Shown in pieces: positions 848 through 41,806 of a stretch of DNA of 64,000 bases. Positions within the stretch are counted from its first letter, which is position 1. Each line of letters begins with the position of its first letter. Made by a program: the position numbers and the translations under genes. Source of the stretch: Hericium rajendrae (lineage: Eukaryota > Basidiomycota > Agaricomycetes > Russulales > Hericiaceae); contig CM065884.1 of NCBI GenBank assembly GCA_033439255.1, positions 2,294,001 to 2,358,000 on the forward strand, given 5' to 3'. The notes beneath the pieces are model-generated. The model was not told where the DNA came from and searched no databases. It saw only the letters and a list, made by a program, of their open reading frames with translations.

Positions 848-921
848 CAAGTATCGCTCGTGTAAACGAGCGATACTCGCTTTGTTAGTACGAAAAGACA
901 AAGAATATTGTAATTACTTAC
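848..921 (-). ncRNA. Intron plus stem-loop module (G1)
   Basis: On the minus strand a 42-nt intron (921 to 880) begins GTAAGT and ends TACTAAC-AAAG. It runs straight into a stem-loop with arms GAGTATCGCTCG and CGAGCGATACT. The same arrangement of donor, branch site, acceptor and stem-loop recurs at least ten more times in the window. I infer a spliced non-coding transcript starting near 1100-1240 on the minus strand. No coding frame is conserved between copies. Confidence 0.6.
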
Positions 922-1250
922 CTAACATGACCCTCCCCGCATCTACTAGCCCACCGGAGTGTCGAACGACGCCTTGCGTCGTGTGTTGACTCTTGAGCGA
1001 GGTTGAGTGAAGGAAGGCGAGAGTGGAGAGAGGAAAGTGAGGAAGTCGTGCCGAAGTCCCTCAGCCACAGAGCACTTGACGCGAGCCCAGCTTTCTTCGA
1101 CATCAGAAAGTCAAATAAAATCGTGATAAATCCAGAAAAAAGGGAGCTTCTACATATTATTCGTAAGACCAGAATCAATGAGCTAACTAGATATCTAATG
1201 GACAGTACGCTCGCGACCCGAGAAGTCAACTTAACCAAGTCTAATTCCTA

Positions 1251-1345
1251 GCCTTTCTCGCGGCTGTCGGCAGCGCCCGGCAGCCACATTTGCGGCTCCG
1301 ACTGGGCACGTCTGGGCTTAGCCTTATAAGGCACGCGCGACGCGT
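1251..1345. promoter_or_regulatory. Divergent promoter zone of G1
   Basis: GC-rich block with repeated GGCAG/CCGGCAG words followed by TATAAG at 1325-1330 for the plus strand. Spliced, AT-rich sequence follows to the right, and a spliced island transcript is inferred to the left. G2 has the same block (about 4010-4080), and G3 and G4 have it inverted. Confidence 0.45.
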
Positions 1346-1481
1346 CGTCTCTTTCCTCTCAACCATAACAATCTCTTCTGCCACGTCGTCATCTCTGCTC
1401 GTCGTTGTCTGCTCGTCATTGTCTGCTCGTCGTTGTTTGCTCGTCGTCATCTGCTTGTTGTTATCTCTGCTCGTCATTCTT

Positions 1482-1660
1482 AAGGTACAGTTGCTATTGT
1501 TTTCTTTCTTATTCTTATACTAATATTAAGTATTATCTTAATAGATTTTCGCTTTTCTAATGCTTTGGTAAGTTCACCTTGTAGTCTTCGGTTGTTGTGT
1601 CACTCACTAGTATGTGTATACTTATTAGATTTTCGCTTTTTTGTTATTTAGGGTAAGTTT
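1482..1660 (+). ncRNA. Spliced micro-exon transcript of G1
   Basis: Downstream of TATAAG (1325) and a CGTCGT-rich leader, a donor at about 1482 opens a chain of short introns. Two micro-exons are seen. The first, 1545-1567 (23 nt), follows AATAG and precedes GTAAGTTC. The second, 1629-1652 (about 24 nt), follows TTAG and precedes GTAAGTTT. Both begin ATTTTCGCTTTT. The same micro-exon start occurs in G2 (4358-4380) and, on the minus strand, in G3 and G4. No open frame is maintained, so I call it non-coding, with moderate confidence. Confidence 0.45.
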
Positions 1661-1879
1661 GTTTGTGATCTTTTGTATTGATTTTAGCTAATGCTTATCT
1701 TTTTGTAGTGTTTGTATATAAAATTTCATAGCTTTATGTAATGTTTATTAGTTCTATTATGTTGTAGTTAAATAGAGTAAATAAATGAAATTATGTTTTG
1801 ATCAATAATGTGATTGACTTTAGGCTATTGATGTGATCTTTTATTAAATATATAGAATTCTGTTTGTTATATAATTGTA

Positions 1880-2165
1880 GATTGAATAGTATAAATAGAG
1901 TCTATTGCTTGTATAGATGTGTCAAGTCTACCTTGTAAATATAGCTTACATCAATGATATAGCTTTCATAGCTTCTATAGCTATGTATCTTATTATAGCT
2001 GTATAGTCAGCTATGATAGCTATGATAGCACTTTATAGCATCTCCCTTGATCTCTATAGCACTATATAGCATTCCTTCTTGGTTATATAGGCTATGGAGT
2101 AAAGGGCAATGCTATGGCTCTAGGAACTCTATATAACTCTGATAGAGCTATGTAGCACCTCTACA
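1880..2165. repeat. 'tatag' repeat flank of G1
   Basis: Dense irregular repeats of the words CTATGATAG, CTATATAG and AGCTATG. Equivalent blocks flank G2, G3, G4 and the G5 remnant, so they are subterminal repeats of this element family. Confidence 0.7.
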
Positions 2166-2176
2166 TTTTCCTGATG

Positions 2177-2253
2177 CTGGGGCAAGCTGTGGATGAGGAG
2201 AGCGACACTAGCACATTGTCTTTCCTGCTGCTTGGCCTCGAGCTGGAACAAAC
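2177..2253 (-). pseudogene. Fragment of Ulp1-like gene between G1 and G2
   Basis: About 77 bp left between the end of G1 (2176) and the start of G2 (2254). Its minus strand reads as an open stretch of hydrophobic and Gln-rich residues that would continue the Ulp1-like peptidase fragment seen at 4985-5251. It is too short for independent recognition, and its identity rests on position. Confidence 0.35.
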
Positions 2254-3303
2254 ATCTGAAAAATTGGAATTTTATATAGCCAAAAGGCAGACTATATGTG
2301 CTATGAGAGCTCTATGTGTGCTATGTGGCAGGGCTATTCAGCTATGTAGAGCTATGTAGACTATAATAGTTATCATAGCAGGCAGTGCAACATATATAGA
2401 GCTATGTACTTGTAAGAGGGCACTATGAATGCTACAAACCCCTATAGGCAGCTTTGGTCACTATGATTGCTATCATAAGCCATCTAGACATCAGAGTGAT
2501 CAAGTCAAAAAAAAAATTATATTCGAGGCCATTACATTACAACAAAGTATATAAAGTAATGACTACATCACGCGCACATGTGAGGCCTTCAAAAAGCATC
2601 TGGGGGGGGCATTCTATCCGCACGCGGGATGCAGCGTGCACATGCGGCACATCGAGTGCGGGTGTGGTGCATCAAGCGCTGGCGCGGCACGGCGCGGCGC
2701 ATCGAGCGCTGACACGGGGTGTTACACGCGCGTGCAGGTCGTTGGGGCGCGGTGTGCTGCGCGTGCGTGCGGCATGTCAAGCGGCGTGGGAGTCGTCGAG
2801 CGGGCGTGTTGGGGGGTTACACATGCACGCGGAATGCTGCACGCTGGTGCGGCACGTCGAGCACGGGCGCGGGGCGTCGAGCGTGGGCATGGGGCGTTGG
2901 ATGCGGGCGCAGGGTGCTGGATGTGGGCGCGGGGTGCTGGACGTGGGTGCGAGTTGTCATGCACACGTGCAAGGCATTGAGCATCGCACACGCGCGCGTG
3001 TGGGACGTTGCGGGCAACTGCACCGTTGAGCGCGTGGCCAAGGCGTCGCGTGCGCGTCCGGGGCCCTTACTGGCCGTGGCGTGCGAGCGCGAGTTGCTGT
3101 ACCCATATTTGGGCCATGGGGTTCGAGCGCGGGGCTTGGGGATAGGGGGCTGTGGGTCACGCGGGGTGGATGCTGTGCGGGAGCTGGTGTATGTGCATTG
3201 GCGGGGCAGTGCGAGAGTACGCGCCATTGTGTGCAAGTGCGAAGCCGCCGCGCGGTCGGCGAGCATGCGGGAACATGTGCCATGGGCACGAACGATGTCC
3301 CGA

Positions 3304-3327
3304 GTCCCATTGCCATGGCAACGGGAC
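3304..3327. promoter_or_regulatory. X-box-like palindrome in G2
   Basis: Near-perfect palindrome GTCCCATTGCCA / TGGCAACGGGAC on the island arm of G2. It sits about 280 bp from the intron and stem-loop module, comparable with the position in G1. RFX-type recognition is inferred from the motif. Confidence 0.5.
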
Positions 3328-3606
3328 ACCTACCGCGCAGTCACCAGCGGACGTCGACGGCACGGGCCGCAACATTGCCTGCGCGCACGACGTGCAGACA
3401 ATGCGGCACGGTGGGCGTGCATAGTCCATGGCCCGGGGTGTGGGTGGCACATTGGGTGCGGGAGGTTGATGTTGCGCATGCGGGTAACCTGGGACGTTGG
3501 TGGCATCATTGAGGAGGTGAAGAGGGCGATGTGAAGGCAGCGGGGGTGGCAGAGATGTGATGTGGGCAGTGGGAGGTGGTGGGAGACGTTGCAATGTCGA
3601 GACAAC

Positions 3607-3679
3607 GAGTGTCGCTCGAAAACGAGCGACACTCTATGTTAGTACGAAGAAACAATAAAATACACTGTTTTTTACTTAC
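3607..3679 (-). ncRNA. Intron plus stem-loop module (G2)
   Basis: The minus-strand intron (3679 to 3634, 46 nt) starts GTAAGTAA and ends GTACTAACATAG. It is followed at once by a stem with arms GAGTGTCGCTCG and CGAGCGACACTC. Compared with G1, the stem differs by a compensated pair (A-T to G-C), which keeps the palindrome. Confidence 0.6.
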
Positions 3680-4009
3680 CTGGGGCCCTCTGGCTGCCTC
3701 AAGCCCGATCCTGCTGTGTTGATGCTCGATGTACGATGAAGAACGGAGGAAGCGAACGAGGAAATGGAGGAGGGGAAGGGAGAGTGAAGGAGAGTGGGTG
3801 GGAATGAGGACGTCTCGATGCGTTAAGTCAGTGCTTCAGCCACCGAATGCGCGAAGAGACTTTACAAATCAAATCAAATAGCTAAAAATACGAAAAAAAG
3901 AGAACAACTATACATTTCATGTCTGAGTAGAATACATGAGCTACTTATGTAGCAAGTGTACGGTACGTTACTGAGTAGCAGGTTCAACATAACCAACTCT
4001 AATCACTAG

Positions 4010-4100
4010 TCTCTGACGCGGCACTCGGCAACTCCCGGCAGCTGTGATTCTCGGCTTCGCCTGAAATTCGTATATAAGGCTCGCGCGATGCGCGTTGCCT
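4010..4100. promoter_or_regulatory. Divergent promoter zone of G2
   Basis: Contains CGGCAACTCCCGGCAG and TATATAAG at 4071-4078 (plus). The plus-strand leader is followed by a donor near 4228. On the minus strand the island transcript is inferred to begin at about 3900-4000, near a TATTTGATTTG block that is also present in G3 and G4. Confidence 0.5.
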
Positions 4101-4227
4101 CTTGCTCTTTAACCCTCACTATCCCTTGCCACGTCGACACGTTTGTCGTCGTCGTTTGCTCACTTGCCATCGTTTGCTTGCTCGTCGCCGTCGTTTGATT
4201 GCTCTCATCGTCGTTCTCTCCGTCGTT

Positions 4228-4440
4228 AAGGTAAGCCCTTATTCTTAGTTCTGTTATAACTTATATACTAATGTCTTCATACTTATTACAACACCATTGT
4301 AGTCCTACTAGGTAGACTTTGTTATATTTTGTACTGATGCTGTAAACTGTTTTGTAGATTTTCGCTTTTTTGTTAGTCTGGTAAGTTTTTATGTCTTATC
4401 TTTGTTATCTTTCAATACTAATGTTTTGTAAGATTTTGTA
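4228..4440 (+). ncRNA. Spliced micro-exon transcript of G2
   Basis: A donor (AAG|GTAAGCC) near 4228 leads to a micro-exon at 4358-4380. This begins ATTTTCGCTTTT, is 23 nt long, and is flanked by TTTGTAG and GTAAGTTT. It matches the micro-exons of G1 in length and first 12 bases. The rest of the leader is CGTCGTTTGCT repeats. Non-coding is inferred because no frame continues. Confidence 0.45.
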
Positions 4441-4780
4441 GTCTTCTATTTGGGTTTTGTTATCTACCTTTATCTTATCTTATCTCTTATCTTATCTCTT
4501 CTTTTATCTTATCTTCTTTTATCTTATCTATGTCTTATATAATATCTGTATATAGATATAGATGTTTGTATAGTTTAAAAGTTTGTTTATATAGTTTGTA
4601 TTATTGTTATAATACTTAATAAAATTTAAATTGATTTGTTCTTATTATTGATTGTTGTACTTTGTAAATCAAGTTTATTTTATTTATTAAATTGTAAAAT
4701 AAATTAGATACAATAAGTTCTGAAAGTTAACATAGTTTTGATAGTCATATATAATATATATAATATACATATAGTCTATA
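4440..4780. other. AT-rich spacer of G2, no gene seen
   Basis: TTATCT-type simple repeats (4470-4530), then AT-rich sequence without an open frame. It corresponds to similar spacers at 1660-1880, 19150-19440 and 28400-28650. Confidence 0.6.
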
Positions 4781-4984
4781 ACATAAATAGCATACATACA
4801 ATATGTAGTAAGCATAGCTTGTATAGCTACCTTATACTATGATACCTATGCCTTATAGTAAGGTAGCTATGATAGCTATGATAGCTCTCCATAGCTGTCC
4901 TATTTGGCTCTATAGCTCTATATAGATGACCTCTAAGCTATATAGAGCTATGAAGAAAAGGAGACAGCTATCAAGCTATTAGAG

Positions 4985-6230
4985 CTATGTAGCTGATATA
5001 GTGATATATAGCTCTGACAGATTTCTCAGATATGGAAAGCGAAGCTTCATGAACTCAGTACGTAGTACAATGCTGTCTCGAAAGGTGTGGCTCCATTTGT
5101 AGGTGAAATAATTGATGACCGCATGGTTGAGCATCTGCCCGGGACGAAGTCGTTCTACATCGGCGACTTTGCAGTCGTCGATGCAGACCTTACCATCCAG
5201 AACGCTGCACACCTCGACCTTAAAATCTCCATCGCAGACCTGGTCCTGCACGGTCTTCGAGACAGCATTAGACCATGGGCAAGAGATGTGGCAAGACTAC
5301 GCACCTGACGCAGAACATTCTGCACGCTCTTTCCTCCCTTGTCTCTCTAGTCAATAACTACTGCACGCACGCCTGTACTCCACATTTTCATACCAAAGAC
5401 AATGTCCCGAAAGCGAAGGCCAATCGCATGGAGGGACGCACTTTGCTCATCCCTCAACTGAAACAGGGAAAGCTTGGCCTCAAAGTCACCAAGATGGCTT
5501 AGCCCGAGAGCCACAGCCTCCTGGTAGCCAGATTGAAGGGCAAGAACAAGCCCATAGTTCAAGTCGTTTGCATCCTGCAGCAGAGTGGAGACTTGCTCAT
5601 GAATGGTGCGTTGCTCAGACACCACGCCGCTGTCGAGATCGGCGCAGGCCCACAGCCATAGAAGCTCGTTTGTCTTGAGCCAATCGTGAAACGTGTCGAG
5701 TGCCTTCACGACTTCAGACGTGACAGCCGGCAAGAGGAGGATATGCGGAGGTGGGTGCTGAGACGAAAGCAAGGGATGGGAGAGGGTGATTAAGGACGGG
5801 GAGCGGAGGCGAGACAAACAGGCTCGTGTGCGAGCTTTTGACTCAAGTCGTTCAGCGTGTGCCGCAAGGCCCTCAGAGGTGGAGAGGATGAAGATAGAGC
5901 CGTCAGCCCACTTCGCCGCCTGCTTGTTCCTAAGAAACGGCAAAAAAAAAGTAGTAAGTCACTCATATAATCCTCATAGTGCATGTTACTCACCTTCTTT
6001 GATTCACATTAAGCGCATCCATCCTCGCCTGCTCATCTGCTGTGTACGGGACACCACACCGCGATTTCGATCGAGAGCCCTTCGAGTCTGGACCGGCCTT
6101 CATAGATATTCTAGAGGTCCTACATAGGCATTTTGTAAAGATGTAAGTCACCTTCCAAAGAAAACAAGAGGGGATACTTACCGTTAAGCCTTGAGGAACG
6201 ATGGTGGTGAGAGCACAAGGCCAAGTCGAT
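4985..6230 (-). pseudogene. Decayed Ulp1-like (C48 family) protease gene of element P2
   Basis: Two minus-strand segments. The upstream segment (5943-5347) contains a helical region with WLKTNELLWLWACADL, YGLVLALQSGYQEAVALGL and LSLFQLRDEQ. I associate this with the region preceding the protease domain in transposon-linked Ulp1 proteins of agaricomycetes. The downstream segment (5251 to about 5030) carries RPGQMLNHAVINYF, matching the L-ND-VINYF-KW entry motif of Ulp1/SENP cysteine peptidases. The catalytic His, Asp and Cys would lie further on; the gene is cut there by G2 and G1. The original Asn-Asp is Asn-His here. Stops between segments mean it is broken unless unseen introns remove them. 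It faces away from the P2 transposase at 21601-24581. P1 inserted just upstream of it. Confidence 0.5.
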
Positions 6231-6299
6231 ATTCGACGTGTTGAACGTGCCCAAGTCGCAAGGTGTTAGACGCATTCATCAGCAAAAGGGCAATCTTCT

Positions 6300-7450
6300 G
6301 ACTGGTCTGACTGTCTGACTCTTGTCTGAGATTTCTGGATAGGTCCATTTCTCTGATTTACATATGAATAAAATAGTGTGTAGATCATTTTGTAAAATTA
6401 GACAAATATCAGACCTGTCAGATTTTTGAAAATCTACTAGACATAGCTAATCTTGTCAGACATTTACTAAATCCTCAGACAATTGCTATGTTTCAGATAC
6501 AATTAGACAGGTCCCTATTGTCAAGTATATTTCAGATACTTCAGACTTCTAATATCTGTCAGATATAAGTAAACTTGTCAGATAATAAAAAACTTATTAG
6601 ACAATTACAAGTTTTAGATATGATTAGATGAAACTCTATCATCAAGTATATTTTAGACACTTCAGACATTTTGCATTCATCAGATGCTATTGTTTTTGTT
6701 AGACAAACAATGTTATTCAGATACAATTAGACGGGTCCCTATCGTCAAGTATATTTTAGATACTTCAGACTTCTGATATCTGTCAGATATAAGTAAACTT
6801 GTCAGATAATGGACAACTTCTCAGACAGTTATAACTTTTCAGATACAATCAGACAGGTCTCTATCATCAAGTATATTTTAGACACTTCAGACATTTTGCA
6901 TTCATCAGATGCTATTGTTTTTGTTAGACAAACAATGTTATTCAGATACAATTAGATGGGTCCCTATCATCAAGTATATTTCAGATACTTCAGACTTCTG
7001 ATATCTATCAAATATAAGTAAACTTGTCAGATAATGGACAACTTCTCAGACAGTTATAACTTTTCAGATACAATCAGACAGGTCCCTATCATCAAGTATA
7101 TTTCAGACACTTCAGACTTCTAATATCTGTTAGATGTAAGTAAACTTGTCAGATAATAAGAAACTTTGTAGATAATTATAACTTTTCAGATACAATCAGA
7201 TAAGTCTCTATTATCAAGTGTATTTTAGATACTTTAAACATTGTACATTCATCAGATGCTATTGTTTTTGTCAGACAAACAATATTATTTAGATACAATC
7301 AGACAGATCTCTATTATCAAGTATATTTTAGAGACTTCAGACTTTTAATATCTATCAGATATAAAGAAACATATTAGATAATAAAAAACTTCTCAGACAA
7401 TCATAACTTTTCAGATACAATTAGATGAATCTCTATCATCAAGTGTATTT
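6300..7450. repeat. Left subterminal repeats of P1
   Basis: Irregular repeats of about 90-170 bp built on 'cagatacaatcagacagg', 'tccctatcatcaagtata' and 'acttcagacttctgatatc'. Such subterminal arrays are typical of CACTA-like transposase binding regions. The CTATCGTCAAG core reappears inverted at the right end (17828-17850) and in the MITE at 9533-9823. Confidence 0.75.
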
Positions 7451-7692
7451 TAGACACTTTAGAGTTTAGTATATTTATAATTTGTTAAAGTTTGTATTAG
7501 ATTTTAGACAATCAACTTATCTCAGATATATTCAAACAGATGTTTGTTGTTAGATAAAATTTTTGAGTCATTTTCTTGAGACTTTATATTAAAAATCTAA
7601 AAGGATGAGAGTTTTTACACAGAAATAGTAACATTACTTAACCTAATTGCACTTATCACACTGTAAAGATATAAAATAACACATCAATCAAT

Positions 7693-10600
7693 TTAAAATG
7701 CTATTTCATTAGCATGATGATCAGAAAACTTATTTACATAGTAAGTATAAAAGGAATCTAAGGAATAAGTATGTCTAAAGTCAGTAGGAAGAAATTCTGC
7801 TTCAAAAACAGGCATCAAGTGAGCTCCTCGCAAAATACTATCAACATGGATTACAGAACGAATATTGTTGCCATCTTCATCAAGTTCTCGCTCTACAATC
7901 CACATTTTGGTATCAGGATCTGGCTCTTCTCCAACAGGAACAAACCACTCTACATATGCACAAGGATATGTGACTTTGTGATATTCAAATGAAAAGAATA
8001 GAAGAACTCGTCCAATAAAAAGTCCCTGCATTCCTGGTAACTCTGTGCCACTTTCAACAAAAATGCAATCTCGACGTGAAGGTCCATATCGCCATTCTGG
8101 TGTAGAACGAATGCGATGACAATGCATGTTTGTCAGACCTGACAAATCACTAGGAGAATGATATAAGCAAGAGCAGAATGAAACACATCAACTCTATATG
8201 GAGCTCGAGGAAGTGCAGATAATTCTAATTCTGCTGATGAATGATCAGGATGAAGTTGATCATACACAAATCTTTGAATCATCTCAGAAAGCTCAGGATA
8301 ACCAATGTGACCTTCAAGCCTATGAAGTTCTCGAGGATAATGAGGTGCTTTCTTTCTAGCTAAAGTTACATTTGCCATATATTCTGGCACATCATATGCT
8401 GGTCCTCCATCTATATGATGCTTTGTAGCTTTTTCTTTATCTTCATTAAGTTCATCTTCATCTTCAAGTTCTGAATCTGATTCAAGATCTGAATCAGATT
8501 CAGATTCAGAGGAGTCTGGTTCATAGTCTGAGTCTATTTCTGATTCAGAGGAGTTTAATATAGATTTAGAATTATCAATGTTGACAAGATCTAGAGGCAA
8601 ATCAAGCATGCCACGAGCTATGAAGTCATTTTTAGCTGCAGCAAGTTTGTCAAGCCTCTGATTTGTGAGCAGCATCTGCTCGAGTGCATTAAATCTGCTA
8701 GAACGTCGCCATGGCTCTTTTACAGCTTTGATGTGTTTGGCCTCAGTTATAGATGTGCAAAGTCCATTTGGCACACCAAACAGCCGAATAAGTTCAACAT
8801 AATGCATCAGAGCATGCTGTTTAGGTAGAGAAAATGCTTCACGAATTTCAACATCCTTAAAGATAACTCGTTCTTTATGAAATTTTGCAAGTGCAGCTTC
8901 CATAGCATTTAGTGCAGTCTCATCAATAGTTGGCCTTCGTGCAAGATAGCAGAACTCCATGAATGCAGCAATAGCTCGAACCATCTGATCTGGAACATGT
9001 CCTTGAATTGCAGGCAAATATACCTTCATCAAAGCCTTAGAGTCATCACCAGTCCATTGCTGAAACCCACGTCCTTCAGGAAATCGATGCAGTTCTGGAA
9101 ATGAAGGAGCAGCAGCAATTCTTTGATCAATATCTGCCATAATTCCAGAAGCACGAGTTGGTCCATGTTCATGAATCAGATAATCTTCAACCCAAGCTAC
9201 CAAGTGATCTTTGAAAACACCCTTGATTACTTGATGCAAAAGATCAAATACAATAAGCTCATGAATATCTCCCCTTGGAAAATAAAATGTGAATGGCTAA
9301 GAAAATAAATTAGAATAAGTCAAAACTTTATATTTTAGCTAGTTGTACTCATCATGATATCAGGAACTATGCCATATTTATCCCAGAGATCTTTTGCCTT
9401 AGTGCCATGATTCATTAAAAATTCTGTATGTGTATGACTTCGAGTTCCACCACCTCCATCATCTAGATCTTTTGGTCGAGACAAGCATTTTGGACACCAA
9501 CCTGAAACAATACAAGATACCAGCACTTGTTCCATCAGGAAAAGGGGAAATGTCTGACTGTCTGACTGTCTGACAGTTGTCTGAAATGTCTAAACTTCTG
9601 ACCCACATATGGATGGAATTACATATAGATTATTATTATATAGAGCTCAGATAGACTCAGACTTCAGTCTGACATCAGACAAAAATGTCTGAAAGGCACT
9701 TGACGATAGGGACCCGTCTAATTGGTCTGATTGTCTGATCATCTGGACCAGACAGAACCAGACAGAATCAGATCAGATTAGACAAAGTCAGACACCATTC
9801 AGACAAATGCTGGTTTACTGATGTCAGGATAATCTCCAATATAAGGTCCAATCCCATAAATAACACGACGAAGATGTCCATCAGAACATCGAACAATCTC
9901 TGGAGTAGTCATGCCAGGACGCAAATGCTCAAGAATTGTACGCAAAGACTGTTGTATTAAATGCCGACGAAATTTACAAAAAGCCACATCATTTTGATAT
10001 CGTCTATCTGTTTTTCCAAGAGATAAAAATCCCAAGATGCTTACAGCATCTCTATGAGCTCGACGAACATTGTTATGCACATTTCCAATTGAACCATACA
10101 GTGGCCAAAATTCATTGTGTCCTGTAGCAACAGAGACTGTAGTTTTATCACTGCCTAGAATTACAGGCACAAACATAGCACCTTTGTTAGTTGGATCTTC
10201 AGCCATAATTGTATCAGCTTGTTTCCATGACCAATCTCCAGTCATAAAGTCTGTCCACTGTCGTTCACCATTTTCTTTAAGTTTCGCCTTGGAGCATAGT
10301 CAAATTCTTTAGCAAAATCAGGATTTTTTAGTTGGTTATGCACAAGTGTATGTGGATTGCGATACCAGACTTCAAATTCTTTTGACATCCATGAAGGTGG
10401 GTTTTTAGGTAGCTTTCCCTTATATTTTACTGCAAAACAAAGCCACTCAGCATCTCCATGCTCAATTGAATCAAGCACTGCATGGAGATCATCTTTATTT
10501 GCATATGGATATGCATCAGTAGTTTTGGCCCACATTCCCATAAGATGGTTAAATTTCTTCTTAGAAACTGGCATCTCTCGAAAAAGCAAATCTGCAGCCT

Positions 10601-11033
10601 CAAATTCTACTCGATTTCGAAAAGGAGACCAATTATTAGAATCAGGAATATCCTGTGGATGTGGAGCTGCTCCATCATCAAGATAGTTGCCTGCACTATC
10701 ACATGGTCTTCCATTGAGGTCAGGATGCATTATATTCTGAATTCCAGGCTCTGCAGCAATATCATCCATGTCATCATCTTCAAGTTCACCATAATGTGGA
10801 TCAGCATAAAATATATCTGGCACTTCTGATGAGGATGAACGAGACAATGGCCGAGGTGCAGGTTTCAAAGGCACATTGAGAGCATCATCATCTCTGTTTA
10901 ATTCAGGATGTATAATATGAATATGCTGCTGCAAGCCTCCAAGTGTCACAAAGCCCCTCCGACATGTAGAAGTCAAGGGTTGTGGGCAGACAAATATACG
11001 AGGCTTGTATTGCTTTCGGCGAGGAGGTGCCAT
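7693..11033 (-). pseudogene. Plavaka-family transposase of P1 (interrupted)
   Basis: The start is chosen at MAPPRRKQ (11033) because the P3 copy begins MAPR at the same place. Order: a C2H2-like finger (CPQPLTSTC...HIHIIH), an acidic linker, the conserved SDKTTVSV and IGNVHNNVRRAH region (about 10130-10010), GDYP (9830), CPKC (about 9490), then the core LHQVIKGVFKDH (9245), WTGDDSKALMKVYLP, RFNALEQMLLTNQRL (about 8690), an acidic Ser/Glu tract, and a C-terminal module ending YVNKFSDHHANEIAF (7693). An intron lies at about 9240-9350. Breaks: a MITE at 9533-9823, apparent 1-nt frameshifts near 10270 and 8160, and a degenerate splice donor near 9345. The family is inferred from these motifs and is CACTA-like; a D-D-E triad could not be assigned by eye. 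Confidence 0.7.
9533..9823. mobile_element. 291-bp MITE derived from P1 family, inside P1 transposase
   Basis: Ends CATCAGGAAAAGGG and GGTTTACTGATG, flanked by TC on both sides (9531-9532 and 9824-9825). The interior repeats P1's own right end, including CACTTGACGATAGGGACC-type sequence. Removing it with one TC restores the reading through the conserved GDYPEQ motif of the transposase, which confirms the edges. Confidence 0.8.
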
Positions 11034-11059
11034 TATAGCAACTGAGACAATCAGAAGTC

Positions 11060-11480
11060 TCTGCTTCAATTATGCAATCTCAAAATTTCAACACAGGATA
11101 TATCACAGCACAGTAGCACACAAGAATTATTCGCACTCAGACACAAGATATCCAAGCAAGATCTTCAAGTTAATGGATCACGCTTGAAGAAACAGAGCAC
11201 GACAAGATCAAAGCAAGCTGGCAGTCCCAAGTCAAGATCAAGATATATCTGATGTGAGACAAGCACGTATGTTGGAATAGGCTCAAAAGCGGCAAGACCA
11301 CAGTGCCTTTGCACCAATCAAGGCAAAACAGTTGGTAGCAAGTCCAAATGCCCAAGAGTGTCTTCACACACCCAAAATTGTGGCACTGCGAGTCAAAATA
11401 AGTCAGTTCCAAGTTTTAAGGCCGAGAATGCCCCACACCAAGCAGGGCAGTCACATCGAAAAGCATCCGCGCGGTCAGCA
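11060..11480. other. Spacer upstream of P1 transposase
   Basis: Intergenic sequence between the transposase start and the palindrome array. It should hold the transposase promoter, but I see no convincing TATA box. No gene seen. Confidence 0.4.
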
Positions 11481-17947: not shown

Positions 17948-17954
17948 ACTTGTG

Positions 17955-29777: not shown

Positions 29778-29850
29778 GTGAGTAAACAAAGCTTTCCATA
29801 TTGTTTTTTTGTGCTAATGTGGGGAGTATTTCTCATTCGAGCAATACTCT
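29778..29850 (+). ncRNA. Intron plus stem-loop module (G4, decayed)
   Basis: Intron from GTGAGTAA (29778) to GTGCTAATGTGG, then a stem with arms GAGTATTTCTC and GAGCAATACTC. The pairing is weakened relative to G1-G3, in step with the age of the copy. Confidence 0.55.
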
Positions 29851-31613
29851 CACCCTCGCTGGCCTCTCCCACCCTCGCTGGCCTCTCCCATCCATTTGCC
29901 GGCCTCTTCCATCCATTTGCCTCCTGCCACCATCTCTTCCCTGCTGCTGCCTCCCCCCGTCGACTCACCCCCAATTCTGCCACCACACCCTGTCGACCAC
30001 CCCAATTCTGTTGCCACGCACATGCTGCACAATGCACACAGCAGCCCACTGCCTCATGTATGGGCCAGGCATGCTGCTCACCACTCACTGCCTCCTCGTC
30101 TCGCACACGGGCCCAGGCACTGTGTGCAGCCTTGCTGTGCTGCGCATGCCAGCACATGCATAGTCGGTGGATGGCCATGGCCATGCACAGGCATGCCAGT
30201 GAATGTCAGCACATGGACGCATGCACGTTGTGCATGGCTGCACGAGGTGTGCTTGCACATGGGCCCCAGTGCCTCGTGCACAGGCCTTTGCATCGTGCAT
30301 GGGCCCAGTGCCTCATGCATGCCTGCCGTGCCCCGTTGCTCTCTGCTGCACCTCATGCATGAGCAAGCACCCTGCGGATGCCCACTGCACTTTGTGTACA
30401 GGCCTGTAGCAGCCCAGCACTTTGCCAACCCCACCGCACCTTGCCAATGCCTGCCGCACCTCATGCATGAGCCTGTGGCAGCCCCAAGCCCCATGACACT
30501 ACCATGCCTTGTGGATGCCTGCCACACCGCATCCTGTGGTACCTTGTGCACGAGCCAGAGGGAGCTCCATGCCTTACGCATGGGCCCATCAGATCCTGAC
30601 ACCTCGCCGATGCCTGCTGCGCTTCGCCCACAGGCCCGCTGCACTCCAGCGACTCGAGCCGTGCCCTGCTGCACCTCATGCACAGTCCAGGGGCAGCCCT
30701 GCACCCTATGCACAGGCCCTCATGCCTTGCAAGCATGGGGCACCTTGTGCATGGCCCCCAATACCTCACACATGGGCCGGCCACCTGCCATGTCTTGCAC
30801 TCACTGCTCACATCTCGCATATGGGCCCGCCATAGCCCGACATTGGTGCACATGGCTCAACACCATCTGCATGCCACCACACCATCCACATGGCTGTCGT
30901 GGCCACTGTGCCTCATTTATGACTGCTGTGCCACATGCACAACTACCATGCTGTGCATGCCTACCACGCCTCATGCACACCCTTGTGTTAGGCATGCACT
31001 GTCCATACTAGTATTGTACATGATTGTACTAGTAGCCATATTAAATATAATTGATTTTTTTTTCGTACTTGGTTGTCTTTTGAGATAGTAATAATAGTAT
31101 TCATACCTTACTTACTGTAGGGACCATAGGGACCATAGGGACCATAGCAAGCCAGTGAGTTGATATAGTAGCTATAGCTGCCCCTCAGAAATATATAGCA
31201 CTGTATAGTGTCTAACTACTGCTATATAAGCTATGATAGGCCTCATAGCCTTATATAGTTGAGAAAGGTAGCTACATAGATGATGATAGACCTCATAGCA
31301 TTATGATAGAATATATAAATGAATACTAGACTATATAAAATTTTAATTTCTCAGATGACCAGTGCCCTTCAAGTCCCTCCGCTTTGCGCTTCCCTCTTTC
31401 AATTGCTCTCGACTCCATCCATCATCAAGAATATTCTGTGAAGATCTTTAAGGTCCACTCCATACACCAGAGTCACCCCCCTCACCAAATATCACCATTG
31501 CTCCCCTCATTCTCCTATACCTTCTCCTCAAAGCATCAGATAACAAATTATTGGATGAAGATAGGACACATTGTTGCTACCTAGAGGAGGATCAAGCAAC
31601 CCCTTACCAAATC

Positions 31614-32201
31614 TGTAGAATCAAGGTGTGGCCAAAACTCTACACCTACAATGAAGAAACAGACCTCCTTTACTACAACTGCTAAGGACCAATGTCCTGT
31701 AGTGACTGAGTAGGGGCTTAGGCTACACACACAAACAACAAAGGCTGACCTGCTTAAGAGGCAATCAACAATGGAGAGAGTCGAGAGCAATTCAGAGAGG
31801 GAAGTGCAAAGTGGAGGGACTTAAAGAGCACTGGTGACTGACAGGAGGTAAATCCTATAGAGTTGCAAAGTGGTTAAGCTGAGGTCTAAGGGACTCAGCT
31901 CAACTGGTTAAATACAGGAGGATGCACAGCTGAGAGTCGTATCTAAGGTAACAGTAGTAACTGTACATTGCATAGCATTGTACTGCACATGATGGAGATG
32001 AAACATAATGGGGAGGTAGATAGAAAAGCACTACAATGATCATGATGGAAATGAATAGTGGATCAGGGCAGTGCGATAGAGTCCATGCATGCATGTAAAT
32101 ATGGTTAAATAAAGGGAATGGAGCAACAGAACATCAACCATGGTGTGGATGTCAAAGAGAGTGATGTCAAGTTAAGAAAATGAAATGTACAGTTTTTAAC
32201 A
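31614..32201 (-). repeat. Family-B LTR (minus)
   Basis: Starts TGTTAAAAACTG (32201, reading leftward) and is taken to end TTCTACA at 31614. The inner end is uncertain because no second full copy is available. Shared with 27711-31412 and 34144-38699. Confidence 0.65.
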
Positions 32202-34143: not shown

Positions 34144-35654
34144 TAAGGGACCCAGCTTAACCAGTTAAATATAGGAGGAGGCACAGCCATAAGTTGTATC
34201 TAATGTAATGGTAGTAACTGTGCATTGTGTAGCATCGTACTATGCATTGTGTAGCATCGTACTATGCATGATGAAGATAAAACACAATGGGGGAGTAGAT
34301 AAGAGCATCAGCAAACCTTTTCATTTACTTGTTGATCTGATTTGCCTTTTTTTGATCTGGTTGATCTGATTTTGATCTGAAAATTTTTTTAATATGCAAT
34401 TTGAGCTTTCTAATATCTGTTATTATAATATTGCATCTTTTTTTTATCTATGATGTACATATTAAAAATCACACAAACTGCTCTTAAAAATTTTCAAAAA
34501 AAAAACCAGATCAAAACCACATCAGGAAATGAGGAATCTTCTGACTAGTCTGACTGTCTGACTTTTGTCTGAGAGTTCTGAACAGGTCCATTTGTCTGAC
34601 TCACATATGAATAAAATAATGTGTAGATCATTTTGTAAGATCAGAAGAATATCAGATATAAACAGACCTATCAGATTCTTAAAAGTCTATCAGATAAAGG
34701 TAATTTTGTCAGACATTCAATTAAAGTCAGATTATTGCTACTTTTCAGATAGAGTCAGGTAGGTCTCTATCATCCAGATGTTCTCAGACATATCAGATTC
34801 TTACACATCTGTCAGATGAAGGTTATTTTGTCAGGCATTAAATAAATGTCAGACCATTGCTACTTTTCAGATAGAGTCAGGTAGGTCCCTATTGTCCAGA
34901 TGTTTTCAGACATGTCAGATTGTTATGTATCTGTCAGATGAAGATTATTTTGCCAGACAGTTAATGTTTATCAGACCATTGCTACTTTTTAGATGAAGTT
35001 AGGTAGGTCTCTATCATTCAGATTTTTTCAGACATGTCAGAATTTTAAAAATCTGTCAGATGAAGATTATTTTGTTAGACATTCAATAAATGTCAGACAA
35101 TTGTTACTTTTCAGATAGAGTCAGATAGGTCTCTATTATTCAGATACTTTTAGATATGCCAGACCTTTGAACTTTGATCAGACATTATTAAGTCTTTCAG
35201 AGATTGAATTAAAGTCAAATAGCTGCTACTTTTCAATTAAGTCAAATAAGTCCTTATCATTTAGGTTCTTTTAAACATATAAGACTTATGAACTTGTTTC
35301 AGACATTATTGATCTTGTCAGACATTAAATGAGAGTTAGACAGTAGCTATTTATCAGACAAAGTCAGATAAGCCTTCAGACACATCAGACATCTAAAATT
35401 TTATCAGATATTTACAGTTGTCTCAGACTTAAAGGTCAGAAAGTGAACCTGAGCACCACAGAAATCAAATCCAAGCTTAAATCTGGATCTGAATGGCTGC
35501 TATAAAATCAGAACTGGCACCGGGATCAAATGGAAAATCAGACTTTGATTTTAAATTGGACTTGAGCTCAATCTGAACTTAGGCTGAGTACTCACAACAG
35601 CTTTGCAGAGTCTAGATTTAACATGCATAAATTGACAACTTGACATGATCACTG

Positions 35655-36440
35655 AAGGCCCACGTGCCTGTAGGACCCGAAACATTCTCGTTTCGAACCC
35701 CACAGCATGCGCGGGCAGGTAACTACGAAAACCGAAGGTCCGCGCATCTGTAGGACCCGAAACGTTATCGTTTCGGGCCCTACAGCCTGCGCGGGTAGGT
35801 AGCTACGAAAGCCGAAGGTCTGCGCATCTGTAGGACCCGAAACGTTCTCGTTTCCGGCCCTACAGCCTGCGCGGGGAGGTAACTACGAAAATCGAAGGCC
35901 CGCACATCTGTAGGGCCCGAAACGATGATGTTTCGGGCCCCACAGCTTGCGCGGGCAGGTAGATACGAAAATAGAAGGCCCACGTATCTGTAGGGCCCGA
36001 AACGATGATGTTTCGGGCCCCACAGCTTGCGCGGGCAGGTAGACACCATAGTCGAATGTCCATGCATCTGTAGGGTCCGAAACGTGAACGTTTCGGGCCC
36101 CACAGCTTGCGTGGGCAGGTAGATACGAAAATAGAATGCCCATGCATCTATAGGGCCCGAAACGAAAACGTTTCGGACCCCACACCTGCGCGGGCACGTA
36201 GATACGATAATTGAAGGCCCGCGCAGCTGTAGGGCCTGAAACGAAAACGTTTCGGGCACCACAGGTGCTACGGGCAGGTAGATACAAAATTCGGAGGCCC
36301 GCGCAGCTGTAGGGCCCAAAATGAAAACGTTTCGGGCACCCCAGCCTGCGCGGGCAGGGAAATACGATAACAAAAGGCCCACGTACCTGTGGGGCCCGAA
36401 ATGCACAGATTTCGGACCCAGTAGCCTGCGCGGGGAGGAG
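35655..36440. repeat. Tandem stem-loop array of F1 (about 10 units)
   Basis: Units of about 78 bp. Each holds a palindrome such as GGGCCCGAAACG / CGTTTCGGGCCC with a short variable loop, followed by 'cacagcttgcgcgggcagg' and 'agatacgaaaatagaaggcc'. Unlike in sequence to the P1, P2 or P3 stem-loops, but the same in plan. A shorter array of the same family lies in F2 (41340-41660). Confidence 0.85.
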
Positions 36441-36495
36441 GGCGCGAGACACGCGACGGACGGGGTGGGGGGTTTGGTGCAAACGAGAAAACGGA

Positions 36496-36735
36496 GAGTA
36501 CTGCTCGTTATCGAGCAGTACTCCCGAGATTAGCACGAAAGACGATGAAATACTAAATTTAGGACTCACCTTAGAGCCATCTAGCCTCCAGTAAGCCCGT
36601 CCGGCCTTCTAACGCGTCCTTCCGGCCTTCGAATTGATGTCAGAGAGTGCGAAAATAGGGAGTACTGCTCGAAAACGAGCAGTACTCCCCGAGTTAGTAC
36701 AATGAACATATACAATAATAGACCTAGCGACTTAC
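36496..36735 (-). ncRNA. Two intron plus stem-loop modules, minus arm of F1
   Basis: Module 1: intron 36735 to about 36691 (GTAAGTCG ... GTACTAACTCGG) and stem-loop 36658-36689 (arms GGGAGTACTGCTCG and CGAGCAGTACTCCC). Module 2: intron 36569 to about 36527 (GTGAGTCC ... GTGCTAATCTCG) and stem-loop 36496-36523. Between them lies an exon with CGGCCTTC repeats. Transcription is inferred leftward from the promoter at 36800-36960. Confidence 0.65.
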
Positions 36736-36799
36736 CTAGGCCTCGACTAAGCCCCTCAGGCCTTCAGGGGATCAGAAAATGAAGAAAGAATGGAGGGGA

Positions 36800-36960
36800 G
36801 GAGAGACGAAAGACAGCAAGTACGACTCTAACGTTTCAACGCACGTTGAGCTTCCGGCAAGCCAACGGCCCAGTCGGCAATCCCCGACCGGCAATCCCCG
36901 GCAACGCGCGTCGACTTCAACGTTCAACAGTTCAACGTTTCAATGTTCAACTCCCTTACT
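36800..36960. promoter_or_regulatory. Divergent promoter zone of F1
   Basis: Contains GTCGGCAATCCCCGACCGGC and CGGCAATCCCCGGCAACGCG repeats plus 'ttcaacgtttcaa' repeats. Spliced modules point away from it on both sides. F2 has the same block inverted at about 40690-40770. TTGCCGG words are shared with G1-G3. Confidence 0.5.
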
Positions 36961-37071
36961 GAGACTCGTAGTCTCGTAGATCTCTCGTCCCACCCGTCTT
37001 CTTCCTCTTCACACATGCCGCCTCACATCGTTCGACGTTTAGGAGGGTTGTAGCCAGGTTGAGGGGCTTAG

Positions 37072-37149
37072 GTAAGTAGAACAGTCCTCAATTCTTGTCG
37101 TGTTATGCTAACAAAACGAGCATCACTCGAGTGATGCTCATTGATCCTT
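37072..37149 (+). ncRNA. Intron plus stem-loop module (F1 plus arm, first)
   Basis: Intron 37072 to about 37126 (GTAAGTAG ... TATGCTAACAAAAC), then a perfect stem with arms GAGCATCACTC and GAGTGATGCTC. The arms differ from the other modules by compensated pairs. Confidence 0.6.
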
Positions 37150-37268
37150 CCCTTTGATGCCCAGATCACCCCCAGCACCACCCTATATTCCTCCTACGAC
37201 ACCCCGCAACCATGCTTATGAACCCGCCCCCATCCCACTCCTTCGACAACCTCGCCGGCAACATCGTC

Positions 37269-37297
37269 GAGTCTCGTTGCCGTGGCAACGAGGCTCG
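37269..37297. promoter_or_regulatory. X-box-like palindrome in F1 (first)
   Basis: GTTGCCGTGGCAAC core flanked by TCTC and GAGG arms, 120 bp downstream of the stem-loop. A second site with GTTGCTGTGGCAAC lies at 37522-37552. Confidence 0.5.
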
Positions 37298-37521
37298 GCT
37301 GCACGTTATTCAATGCGCCTCGCCCCGCCTCCTGCGCATTCCCGCGTGGCTTCAACAGCCCGCGGTCACTGTCCACGACTCGAGCGAGCTCTCAAAAGCT
37401 CGCATGCATCTGCTCCATCGCTTTCTGCCTCCGCGCATGCCCCGAGTGCGTGTGCACCACGTCCGCAAGCCTCCACCCCTCTGCTTCCCTCAACCCCGCC
37501 CGCGGCGTCAGCGTCGACATC

Positions 37522-37552
37522 GATCCTCGTTGCTGTGGCAACGAAGCTCGAT
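37522..37552. promoter_or_regulatory. X-box-like palindrome in F1 (second)
   Basis: Arms ATCCTCGTTGC and GCAACGAAGCTCGAT around TGTG; imperfect. Same motif as 706-735. Confidence 0.45.
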
Positions 37553-37618
37553 AAACATCGTGCGCTGTCCAGTCGCTGTCGAACGGATTCGTGGCAGTCT
37601 CTAGGGTAACAAACAATT

Positions 37619-37692
37619 GTAAGTTAATCTTGTTAATCTTGGTTGTTCTCATGTACTAACAAAGAGAGCATTGCTCGTTATCGAGTGATGCC
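37619..37692 (+). ncRNA. Intron plus stem-loop module (F1 plus arm, second)
   Basis: Intron 37619 to about 37664 (GTAAGTTA ... GTACTAACAAAG), then an imperfect stem with GCATTGCTCG opposite CGAGTGATGC. Confidence 0.5.
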
Positions 37693-39309
37693 TTCTTTCT
37701 TTGTACTTAGACTCTCGATGCCCTGTAGTCTCGTGACAGCACAGTAGGTCCTTCGCAGGTGAGTATGGTATTCTTTTCTCATTTTTTTGTCCCTAAATCA
37801 TTTCTCTTTGGTTACACCTCATCTGACCTCCGATGCACCCCTTCCTGCACTCCAACATGATGACTCCATTCCCATGCATCTCCTCTTGACTATGTGTACT
37901 TATCTCTAGACCCAAGTCCTAGAGATGAATATCATATAATTAGACTGATTCTGATGTCTGACCTTATATGACTTCTATCTGATTTTGAGTGTGAACTCAA
38001 ATATGTCTGAGAAATAAGCCTGCTTTTGCACAATGTCTGAAATCTGAAGGTTTATCTAGACATCTGACTGTTAGACATTATCTTATGTCAGACTTTGATC
38101 TGATATCCAATCATAAGTCTGACCTCAGATACAACTAAGATAAATATCAGAGAACATCTGCCTCTCAGATAAACTCTGATACTTAGATAAGATCTGACAT
38201 TCCAGACAATTGTCTGATATTCAGATGGCTGTCTGACTCTCAGACAAGATCTGATATTTAGATGGCTGTCTGACTCTCAGATAAGATCTGACACTCAGAT
38301 GGCTATCTGATACTCAGACTTTGTTCTGAAATCAGACACTTTTATCTGAAAGACACTGGACGATAGAGACCTACCTGACTCATCTGACTGTCTGTATGGT
38401 CTGAATCAGATCAAATCAGATACAATCAGATATCAATCAGAAATTTCCAGGTTTACTGATGCAGATCAACCAGATCAAAAAAAGGCAAATCAGATCAACA
38501 AGTAAATGGAAAGGTTTGCTGATGGAGAGCACTGCAACAATCATGATAGAAATAAATAGTGGATCAAGGCAGTGCAATAGAGTCCATGCATGCATGTAGA
38601 TATGGTTAAATAAATGGAATAGGGCAATAAGACATTGACCATGGTGAGAATGTCGAAGGGAGTGATGTTAAGTTAAGAAATGAAATGTACGGTTCTTAAT
38701 GACCTGTGTATGTATAGCCTCGCACTCTCCACAGAGTGTTTTCATGGCTGCACATGCCTGAGTCAGTACTTGCACTACCTGAACAGTGTGCGCACAGCTG
38801 TGCATGTCCCTGCCAGCATGCATTGACATGCTCATAGCTGCACACTTCCCTGCCATAGTGCAGTGGATGCATACACATGTCACTAGCACCATGTACATGC
38901 CTGTACACATCCAATGCAACCTCTTCTGTCCAACTACACATGCTCAGCCATGCATCTGTTCGTCAGCATGTGCAAGACCATACACAACACAAGGTCATGC
39001 ATGTCCTGGCAGTGTGTGGAGGTGCAGAACTCCATCAGTAAACCTGGAAATTTCTGATTGGTTTCTGATTGTATCTGATTTGATCTGATTCAGATGATCA
39101 GACAGTCAGATCAGTCAGGTAGGTCTCTATTGTCCAGTGTCTTTCAGACAAAAGTGTCTGATTTCAGACAGTCATCTAAGAGTCAGATAGCTGTCTGGAA
39201 GTCAGACAAGTGTCTGAGAGTCAGATTCTATCTGGAAGTCAGATCTTGTCTGATATTTCACTTATCTATATCTGAAGTCAGATCGTGTCTGAAATTCAGA
39301 TTCTGTCTG

Positions 39310-39475
39310 AAGTCAGAGTTTAATCTGATAGTCAGAGTTTAATCTGATAGTCAGAGTTTAATCTGATAGTCAGAGTTTAATCTGATAGTCAGAGTTTAAT
39401 CTGATAGTCAGAGTTTAATCTGATAGTCAGAGTTTGATCTAATAGTCAGAGTTTGATCTAATAGTCAGAGATATC
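39310..39475. repeat. 19-bp tandem repeat in F2 subterminal region
   Basis: About eight copies of 'agtcagagtttaatctgat', nearly identical, so recently expanded. Absent from the matching part of F1. Confidence 0.85.
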
Positions 39476-40205
39476 ATGATGTCAGATATAAACCAGAACA
39501 TGATTTCAGATCAGATTGCAATCAGGTCAGATCAGATGAACCTCAGATTAAGGTCCAGACTATCCATTTCAGAACAGACAAGATTATTCCATTCAAAACA
39601 TTAAAACCAAAGCTAGATTAATAGCAGCATGTTACATCATAAGTATCAGAGGCCATGAGGTAGGCAGGCAGAGTATGCAACAAACTACATAATTGAAGAT
39701 GATTAAGGAAAGGTGACTGGGATATATACCTTTGTAGGACACGCCAGGGCTGTCTCAGGTAGGTGCAGGGCTGTTCTGATCGTGCAAGCTTGAACACATC
39801 TGTTTGGGGTCATGCACGACACCGCGGGGCCACGTTGCGACGGCGAACCATTTATGACATAGTGGTCCACGCGCGAAGCGTGAATGCCATGTACGATAGA
39901 TATCGCGGGCTGTGCACAGCAAGCAGCCACACACAAGGCATGGGTGCTTAGAGTGCCGTGCAGGCCACGCATGCGATGAGGGAACCATACAGCACAACGT
40001 GACCAGGCCATACGGGAGATGTGGGAGCCGTGTGGGTCCGTGCTGGCTCACAAGCATCCGTGCGGAGTCCTGCACAAGATGAAGGCAGTGTGCGGAGGAG
40101 CAGAGGGCATGGGGGAGGTGGGACGTGCAGTGGACGAGGGCACAGCAGAGATAGCCTGCAGGGTGCGGGGTGCGGGAGAGCCGAGGGAGAATGTTGAGAG
40201 AACAA

Positions 40206-40550
40206 GGAATACGGCTCATTATCGAGCAGTACTCCTTAGTTAGCATCATAAACAATGGAATGACGAGAATCCTTGCTCACCTTTTGCTCTTCCAGAGTCT
40301 AGCAATTCCCCCTCGCCCTTCATCATCCCTCCGCGCGCAAGGGCTGAGGGTCGAAGGGCGCGAGAAATGGGGGCACGGGAGAGGCACCGAGGGCGGCAGT
40401 GGCGAGGATGCGGAATGGACGCGGCAGCGAGGAGGGCCAAGGGATGTGCGGGGGTCAGAGAACGAAGACAACAGAGAGTATCGCTCGAAAACGAGCGATA
40501 CTCTCATTATTAGTACGGGTTCACAACAAGAATGAAGAACTACTACTGAC
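40206..40550 (-). ncRNA. Two intron plus stem-loop modules, minus arm of F2
   Basis: Module 1: donor GTCAGTAG at 40550, branch GTACTAATAATG, stem-loop 40474-40505 with arms GAGAGTATCGCTCG and CGAGCGATACTCTC (same stem core as G1 and G3). Module 2: intron about 40280 to 40237, then a degenerate stem at 40206-40235. Confidence 0.6.
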
Positions 40551-40689
40551 CTTTGATACCCAGGAACCCTCTGCGATCCATGCGGGGCTCGTTTTGATGA
40601 TGAACAGCGAGACAGAGAATGGAAAGAGGAGGAATGAGGACGAGTGGAGTCGGAGTGACAGGATTATGAGGATAGGTTGAACTTCGAAG

Positions 40690-40770
40690 TCGACGCGCGT
40701 TCCCGGGCATTGCCGGTCGGGGATTGCCGACCGGACCGGTGGCTTGCCGGAAGCACAACTCACGTTTGAA
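40690..40770. promoter_or_regulatory. Divergent promoter zone of F2
   Basis: GGGCATTGCCGGTCGGGGAT followed by TGCCGACCGG repeats, the inverse of the block in F1. Confidence 0.5.
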
Positions 40771-40879
40771 ACGTCTAAGTCGTACTTATCGATTTATCCC
40801 TTGCTGTTTCTCATCTTCGTCCCCTCCATCCTTCGGTTTCTGATGCCCTGAAGGCTTGAGGGGCTTATTCGAGTCCTAG

Positions 40880-41127
40880 GTAAGTCATAAAACTTGTTCT
40901 TGCATTGTTCATTGTATTAACTCGGGGAGTGCTGCTCGTTTTCGAGCAGTACTCCCCGTTTTCGCGTTCTCTAACGTTAATTCGAATTTCGAAGGCCGGA
41001 TGGACGTGTTAGAAGGCCGGGCGGACTTGCTGCAGGGCAGAGGGCTCTAAGGTGAGTATCAAATCTGTTATTCTACTGTCTTTCGTGCTAACTCCGGGAG
41101 TACTACTCGATAACAAGCAGTACTCCC
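40880..41127 (+). ncRNA. Two intron plus stem-loop modules, plus arm of F2
   Basis: Intron 40880 to about 40924, stem-loop 40924-40957 (arms GGGGAGTGCTGCTCG and CGAGCAGTACTCCCC, loop TTTT). Then an exon with GGCCGG repeats, intron 41052 to about 41096, and stem-loop 41096-41127. This arm corresponds to the minus arm of F1 unit for unit. Confidence 0.65.
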
Positions 41128-41339
41128 CGTTATTTGTTCTTCCTCAAGACCCACAGCCCCACCCCGATTATCCCGTGTCCCGCGCCCTGCACACCACCTC
41201 TCTCGTGTCCCATTTCCCGCGCGTGCTCCGACTCCACCTCGATTCCCGCATGCCTCCGTCTCCTCGCGCATGACCTCGCACGACCTGCACAACCCTGCAC
41301 CCCGCATCCCCGGTAAGTGCTCCTTTCTTAAGCCTTTAT

Positions 41340-41660
41340 ATTCGCCTGCAGCCCGCGCAGTCTGTAGAGACCGAAATGCATGCATTTCGGGCTTACAGGC
41401 GCGCGGGCTTTCTGCTCTCATGTCTGCGTGCCCGTGCAGGCTGCTGGGTCCGAAATATGTGCATTTCGGGCCCCTCAGGTGCGCGGGCCTTCGAATCTCG
41501 TCTCTACCTGCCCGCGCAGGCTGTGGGGTCCGAAACCTTTGCGTTTCGGGCCCTACATGTGCGTGGACCTTCGGTTATCGAGTCTACGCGCCCGCGCAGG
41601 TGTGGGGTCAGAAACGTTTTCGTTTCGGGCCGTACAGGTGCGTGGGCTCCCTGTTTCCTC
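41340..41660. repeat. Stem-loop array of F2 (4 units)
   Basis: Units of about 80 bp with CCGAAAN(8-10)TTTCGGGCC palindromes and 'tgcccgcgcaggctgtgggg' spacers. Same family as the 10-unit array of F1. Confidence 0.75.
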
Positions 41661-41736
41661 CCTCCCTCCCTCGCGTTTGTGCCCTATCGAGCATCAACAC
41701 GGCCAGAGCGGGTTTTCAGCAGGCAGAGGGCTGTAG

Positions 41737-41806
41737 GTGAGTAAAGAATGATTTTCTTTACCTTTTTTCGTACTAATCAAGAGTCGCTCATTTTCGAGCA
41801 ACGCTC
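41737..41806 (+). ncRNA. Intron plus stem-loop module (F2 plus arm, third)
   Basis: Intron GTGAGTAA (41737) ... GTACTAATCAAG, then an imperfect stem with GAGTCGCTC opposite GAGCAACGCTC (41781-41806). Two further introns without a clear stem follow near 42176-42222 and 42460-42507. Confidence 0.5.

Follow-up and report, generated by a model that had tools for sequence, protein, structure and literature searches.

A branch-site hairpin module in putative leader introns of Plavaka-type transposons of Hericium rajendrae

A 64,000-nucleotide (nt) stretch of the genome of the basidiomycete Hericium rajendrae (GCA_033439255.1, contig CM065884.1, forward-strand positions 2,294,001 to 2,358,000; here called the window) contains a recurrent module in which a splice-donor sequence, a branch-site motif and a hairpin follow one another in constant order. 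The parts and their spacing recur from copy to copy and the arms of the hairpin covary. In three members (A to C) of one group of host elements, termed G, the module forms a peak of conservation, and a pair of other hosts, termed F, shares its ends with a neighbouring Plavaka transposase element. We regard this branch-site/hairpin module as real and as kept in Plavaka-type leaders, either because selection maintains it or because the palindrome itself does.

Our favoured explanation, held tentatively, is that an intron contains the hairpin stem, with the branch point ahead of the stem and the 3′ splice site beyond it. The modules would be introns in the leaders of Plavaka-type DNA transposons and of related elements that lack a transposase open reading frame (ORF). 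A putative 5′ splice site would be followed 31–36 nt on by a near-consensus branch site and, from 3–5 nt behind that, by the core of a stable hairpin stem. Acting as a downstream stem, the hairpin would hide or bypass the AGs beside the branch point, and the spliceosome would therefore take an AG beyond the stem. The same device may have been multiplied into a branch-site-plus-hairpin array in the leader of the transposase gene. That these leaders are transcribed and spliced, where their 3′ splice sites lie and what the benefit may be, such as tuning or delaying leader splicing, we infer from sequence. The mechanism is likely a variation on a known intron structure, and new as such.

Architecture and inventory of the modules

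A sequence-only reading of the window had named ten places, on both strands, at which a short intron seemed to run into a stem-loop. At all ten, a donor and a branch site are present and a stem-loop directly follows the latter; a branch-site scan of the window added three places, for a total of 13. The modules of G elements A to D lie at 850–921(−), 3607–3679(−), 20112–20186(+) and 29778–29850(+), respectively. F-left, one of two mirrored F elements, holds F1 at 36658–36735(−), in the transposase-side direction, F2 at 36496–36569(−), second on the same presumed transcript, and F3 at 37072–37139(+), in the other direction. The three additions are F4 (37619–37698(+)), F5 (40202–40280(−)) and F9 (41737–41808(+), with a poor stem). 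F6 lies at 40474–40550(−), and F7 (40880–40958(+)) and F8 (41052–41127(+)) belong to F-right.

Order and spacing of the parts are alike in 13/13 modules. The donor is GTAAGT in seven, GTGAGT in four, GTGAGC in one and GTCAGT in one (F6). Every module has a TRYTAAY branch motif, which is a perfect TACTAAC in five and imperfect in eight. Where a donor is listed (12 modules), this motif stands 31–36 nt from it; in F6 the distance is 35 nt. Behind the motif, the GAG of the stem starts after 5 nt in ten modules, after 4 nt in one and after 3 nt in two. The modules have a stem of at least 6 base pairs (bp) behind the branch site, one of the features that characterize a downstream-stem intron.

Such an arrangement is rarely reached by chance: a strict donor–branch–hairpin script passed ten places in the window, compared with a mean of 0.01 and a maximum of one in 100 local dinucleotide shuffles. 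A covariance model was run on the window without filters. It returned 28 rows up to E = 5, comprising sense matches to all 13 modules (E from 5e-16 to 3e-9), 13 reverse-strand echoes and two chance-level rows. The model was built from the same 13 modules and so speaks only to the absence of other such copies; up to that threshold, the window yielded no additional copy with this kind of stem. Two more combinations of a donor-like site with TGCTAAY, without a hairpin behind them, occur in F-right at 42170–42260(+) and 42450–42500(+).

Covariation of the stem arms

The 13 modules were aligned over 13 pairs, giving 166 pair cells; their rows are related, so the fractions of shuffles and permutations reported here are not probabilities. 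In this alignment 92.8% of the cells are paired, and both sides have changed in 20 cells and in 6/13 pairs. Neither the percentage, nor the number of changed cells, nor the score was reached by any of 500 shuffles, while the number of pairs was reached by 50 and the number of pair types by 282. RNAalifold recovers the same stem from the alignment. At the five variable core positions 57/65 cells match, and none of 20000 permutations was as good. Reducing the set to one row per distinct right core (seven rows) leaves 31/35 matches, a level attained by 12 of 20000 permutations. The paired arm changes claimed in the sequence-only reading are thus present beyond what shuffling yields. Folded singly, 11 of the 13 modules have z-scores between −2.0 and −8.1.

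An excess of G-U over A-C among the imperfect pairs was considered as proof of selection on RNA and dropped. One script gave a ratio of 18:5 across three arrays, and another gave 39 G-U to 22 A-C over all cells on the presumed sense strand; once repeated events were removed, 20 and 18 were left.

Host elements and their kinship to Plavaka

As a correction to the sequence-only reading, the F region resolves into two mirrored elements, F-left (34520–38461(−)) and F-right (39033–43782(+)), with the outer end CATCAGGAAATG and the inner end CATCAGTAAACC. Both ends of F-left match those of a neighbouring element at 6277–17947(−) at 65–66% identity. This neighbour encodes a Plavaka transposase domain (PF18759) on the reverse strand, and it shares CATCA..TGATG ends with F-left and F-right. 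Plavaka elements are reported from Agaricomycotina, and PlavakaB is described as having CATCA..TGATG ends and target duplications of 2–3 bp (PMC12730594). Plavaka is also confirmed to be common in a mushroom genome (PMC8290104). Given this kinship, the idea that these elements belong to no described family is not supported. No clear target site duplication was seen at the F elements or at 6277–17947.

The G elements comprise A (1–2176(−), visible part only), B (2253–5030(−), right end approximate), C (18898–21556(+)) and D (28083–31357(+)). They are mutually homologous, with 58–66% identity over the aligned parts of the five pairs compared (A versus D left out). Their ends differ from those of PlavakaB: C and D end in CATCTG..CAGATG, B has CATCTG at one end, and only the visible end of A reads CATCAG. 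We file them as Plavaka-like by resemblance only, and not as PlavakaB. Because no ORF with PF18759 is listed for the F or G elements in the window, they could, as PlavakaB hosts, be only non-autonomous members. Treating F and G as one alignable family was rejected, as neither F-right against C nor F-left against A gave a match. Element D interrupts a repeat of which an empty copy lies at ~31830–31860; the flanks AT/AC, compared with CAGTCACCAGTGC in the empty copy, are compatible with a 2-bp target site duplication plus one change.

Among G elements A to C, the module has an identity of 0.73, against 0.48 ± 0.09 (maximum 0.68) for 74-nt windows at 18900–20350 of C. The top 40-nt window of the alignment (0.81) is the branch/hairpin part of the module. 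Immediately behind the hairpin, conservation drops to background. The possibility that the sequence past the G hairpins encodes a conserved protein was not supported: 20180–20700 of C has identities of 0.28–0.46 in 40-nt windows, and the sense ORF at 29818–31011 has no Pfam match. When the inner parts of F-left and F-right are compared from end repeat to promoter zone, a single match reaches 60 nt or more at E up to 1e-5. It joins 37630–37717 to 40449–40539, spans ~90 nt at 68% identity and covers F4 and F6. Shared zones such as 36780–36960 and 40680–40860, flanked by modules in opposite directions, look by eye like divergent promoters.

Two further motifs accompany the host elements. On the opposite arm of the G elements, ATTTTYGCWTTTT occurs at 1629(+), 4358(+), 28842(−), 28680(−) and 19459(−). 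At four of these five places it has a TAG a few bases upstream and a GTAAGT or GTGAGT donor downstream, which looks like a repeated micro-exon of an opposite transcript. Palindromes around GTTGCCATGGCAAC lie at 705–736, 3304–3327, 20320–20333, 37268–37297 and 37519–37552, following hairpins A, B, C and F3 at distances of 120–387 nt; we take them to resemble the X-box bound by RFX proteins.

Transposase leader and hairpin arrays

Upstream of the transposase of the 6277–17947 element lies a leader of 846 nt (11386–12231(−)) that looks like one intron in which a long interval separates the branch sites from the acceptor. It would open with GTAAGT at 12231, continue as an array of branch sites and hairpins, and close with a CTGAC..CGCAG acceptor, CTGACTTATTTTGACTCGCAG, ending at 11386. 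A script finds 11 hairpins in it. The leader is poor in AG, with 14 occurrences against 32.6 expected and 31 for GA, and none of 5000 shuffles was as low. Its flanks have 43 AGs against 31.4 expected (669 nt upstream) and 19 against 23.2 (485 nt downstream). A CTRAY site precedes the stem in 7/9 aligned units; the two exceptions (CTGGC) are near-identical copies that carry CAG there. Both sides have changed in 8 cells and 4/16 pairs of this array, values that were equalled by 0/500 shuffles for cells and 153/500 for pairs.

The F elements contain a hairpin array of their own, an 80-nt array with a degenerate branch-like motif at 35651–36438(−) in F-left and its counterpart at 41351–41645(+) in F-right. 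By eye, the stem sequences of the module set, the leader array and the F array are unrelated.

Position of the 3′ splice site

The first AG past the branch site ends 5–9 nt from the branch A. In six modules (A, B, C, F4, F5 and F9) this AG at the stem is preceded by a base other than G, as AAG, TAG or CAG, with TAG or CAG in B and C. In the other seven it is the GAG of the stem itself. For comparison, 26 candidate intron rows of the transposon genes, many of them overlapping alternatives, show distances of 5–45 nt. The three most trusted coding introns, chosen by donor and CTRAY (46877(−), 52940(+) and 22150(+)), have 12–14 nt; rows with 5–7 nt are also listed.

Beyond the stem, the first non-G AG ends 13–191 nt away. 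Some contexts there would make good acceptors, as in F4 (TTTCTTTGTACTTAG), F5 (CCCCGCACCCTGCAG) and F2 (CTCCTCCCCGCGCAG). The 60 nt behind the four G stems contain no AG, against 4.7 expected, and four GAs. Acceptor-like sites and AG scarcity may thus in part favour a 3′ splice site beyond the stem, a case that the controls described below weaken.

Weighing the explanations

Several observations weigh against an intronic stem with a distal acceptor. In the G elements one has to go 70–191 nt past the stem to reach a non-G AG. Over all 13 modules, the 60 nt behind the stem hold 19 AGs against 21.4 expected; the first AG there comes late (8e-5), but so does the first GA (2e-3), and with this control we no longer take the AG-free tract to prove that the 3′ splice site is distal. 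When D is added to the G alignment, module identity falls to 0.67, and windows in the end repeat (0.72) equal the best window of the module (0.71). Units of the leader array are mutual copies, so its AG depletion is made up of non-independent events. In the F array (13 units), covariation does not exceed that of shuffles, the branch-like motif is degenerate, an acceptor-like CAG directly precedes the stem in 8/13 units, and the poverty is not specific to AG (AG 29, GA 28, expected 36.9). DNA palindromes abound in these elements, in the arrays and in a coding repeat at 50740–52100. Finally, the balance of 20 G-U to 18 A-C after removal of repeated events leaves a kept RNA and a kept DNA palindrome undistinguished, and therefore nothing shows that RNA, rather than a DNA palindrome, is being kept.

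In the sequence-only reading the AG that closes the intron abuts the stem, so that the following exon would open with a hairpin acting in the spliced RNA. We consider this unlikely. What holds of that proposal is the intron-like module with its stem-loop and, in 6/13 modules, a non-G AG at the stem, which in B and C is a TAG or CAG; the CAG before the stem in 8/13 F-array units and the return of G-element conservation to background right behind the hairpin also agree with it. In 7/13 modules the first AG is a GAG internal to the stem, however, and the AG would end just 5–9 nt from the branch A, so an exon start at the hairpin is not established. A DNA-level cause is similarly doubtful. The palindromes would then be recognized by a DNA-binding protein of the transposon or of the host, or be kept perfect by palindrome-templated mutation, with their position behind an intron-like motif inherited along with the module. 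Palindrome-templated mutation could yield paired changes without selection on RNA, the imperfect pairs lack a strand bias after repeat removal (20:18), and palindromes are plentiful in the elements, the arrays and the coding repeat. Set against these points, the distance from the branch motif is tightly kept in 13/13 modules, and the transposase leader has the same order of parts although its stem sequences are unrelated. Unconstrained spacer bases in a protein site would also not be expected to show paired changes at variable positions.

Splicing might instead halt after its first step, as in the telomerase RNA of fission yeast, if the hairpin and a distant AG stalled the second step and the 5′ exon were released as a short RNA; we judge this very unlikely. 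In Schizosaccharomyces pombe, release follows from a strong branch site and a long distance (PMC4299874), and some G modules likewise combine a strong branch site with a distant AG: TACTAAC is perfect in 5/13 modules, and the first non-G AG beyond the stem is 70–191 nt away in G elements. The donor of F6, GUCAGU in RNA, is also that of TER1 in two other fission yeasts (PMC4299874). A released 5′ exon is hypothetical for the modules here, however, and branch sites are imperfect in 8/13 of them. Near acceptors in several F modules also speak against a stalled second step, and the at least two successive modules on the same presumed strand in F suit ordinary multi-intron splicing better.

A broader proposal we put forward as improbable. 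The transposon lineage would carry a portable splicing switch made of a branch site and a hairpin, in which the stem sequence is replaceable while position and pairing are kept. Arrayed in the transposase leader and retained in transposase-less relatives, this switch would delay or uncouple the second splicing step, metering transposase expression or releasing short 5′ exon RNAs.

Relation to known systems

Downstream stems are described for 21 of 88 Saccharomyces introns (PMC12350175). The modules resemble them in having a stable stem behind the branch site of what would be a spliceosomal intron. Unlike the yeast stems, one homologous module recurs here in transposon leaders, its core 3–5 nt behind the branch motif and its arms covarying, and an array has arisen from multiplication of a similar device; the 3′ splice sites of the modules are candidates only. 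Stwintrons and related introns of Hypoxylaceae are likewise multiplied fungal introns with inverted repeats (PMC8469720). In those, the repeats are terminal and the multiplying unit is the intron, whereas here the intron would ride in a larger transposon, with its stem placed after the branch site. Introner elements also spread as introns, into many genes; that 13/13 copies in the window sit inside larger transposons speaks against such an origin, within the window.

Within the accessible text of the PlavakaB paper (PMC12730594), a term search returned no mention of a stem-loop, and the one mention of a palindrome concerns other genes. No description of such a module was found in titles and abstract openings of the open-licence literature, a weak negative for that scope. 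In the literature examined, a covarying stem set a few bases past the branch site is described for yeast introns and was not seen for transposon leaders. If the stem acts on splicing, it would amount to structural control of a transposase, testable with ordinary splicing reporters. The natural stem variants would then offer a series for how close a helix may come to the branch point and how this shifts 3′ splice site choice.

Other features of the window

The coding stretches tested, nine ORFs given to Pfam, are transposon genes. They include Plavaka transposase pieces at 8133–11069(−), 22684–23709(+) and 45991–46794(−) and a retrotransposon at 56153–61967(+) with gag, reverse transcriptase, RNase H, integrase and chromodomain. 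Pfam matches of ORFs 14650 and 49106 to SNAP and Ebola_NP were below cut-offs and were ignored. The window contains no tRNA and no Rfam match. The exact hairpin pattern was found in none of the viral and none of the prokaryote contigs searched, and the Plavaka proteins of the window have no relative among viral contigs, prokaryote contigs or plasmids.

The 6277–17947 element seems to contain a second, divergent gene at 12343–16741(+), of which the tested ORF (14650–15582) has no Pfam match above cut-off. About 44 bp separate the end of G element C from the ATG at 21601(+) of a Plavaka transposase gene, and gypsy-like sequence lies downstream of that gene. The coding repeat at 50740–52100(+) has units of ~80 nt (protein like DENEPxEARSRA), many with a DNA palindrome. 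A 585-bp inverted repeat at 48525–49109, with arms 85% identical and CATCAGGAAGG at both ends, is perhaps a foldback element.

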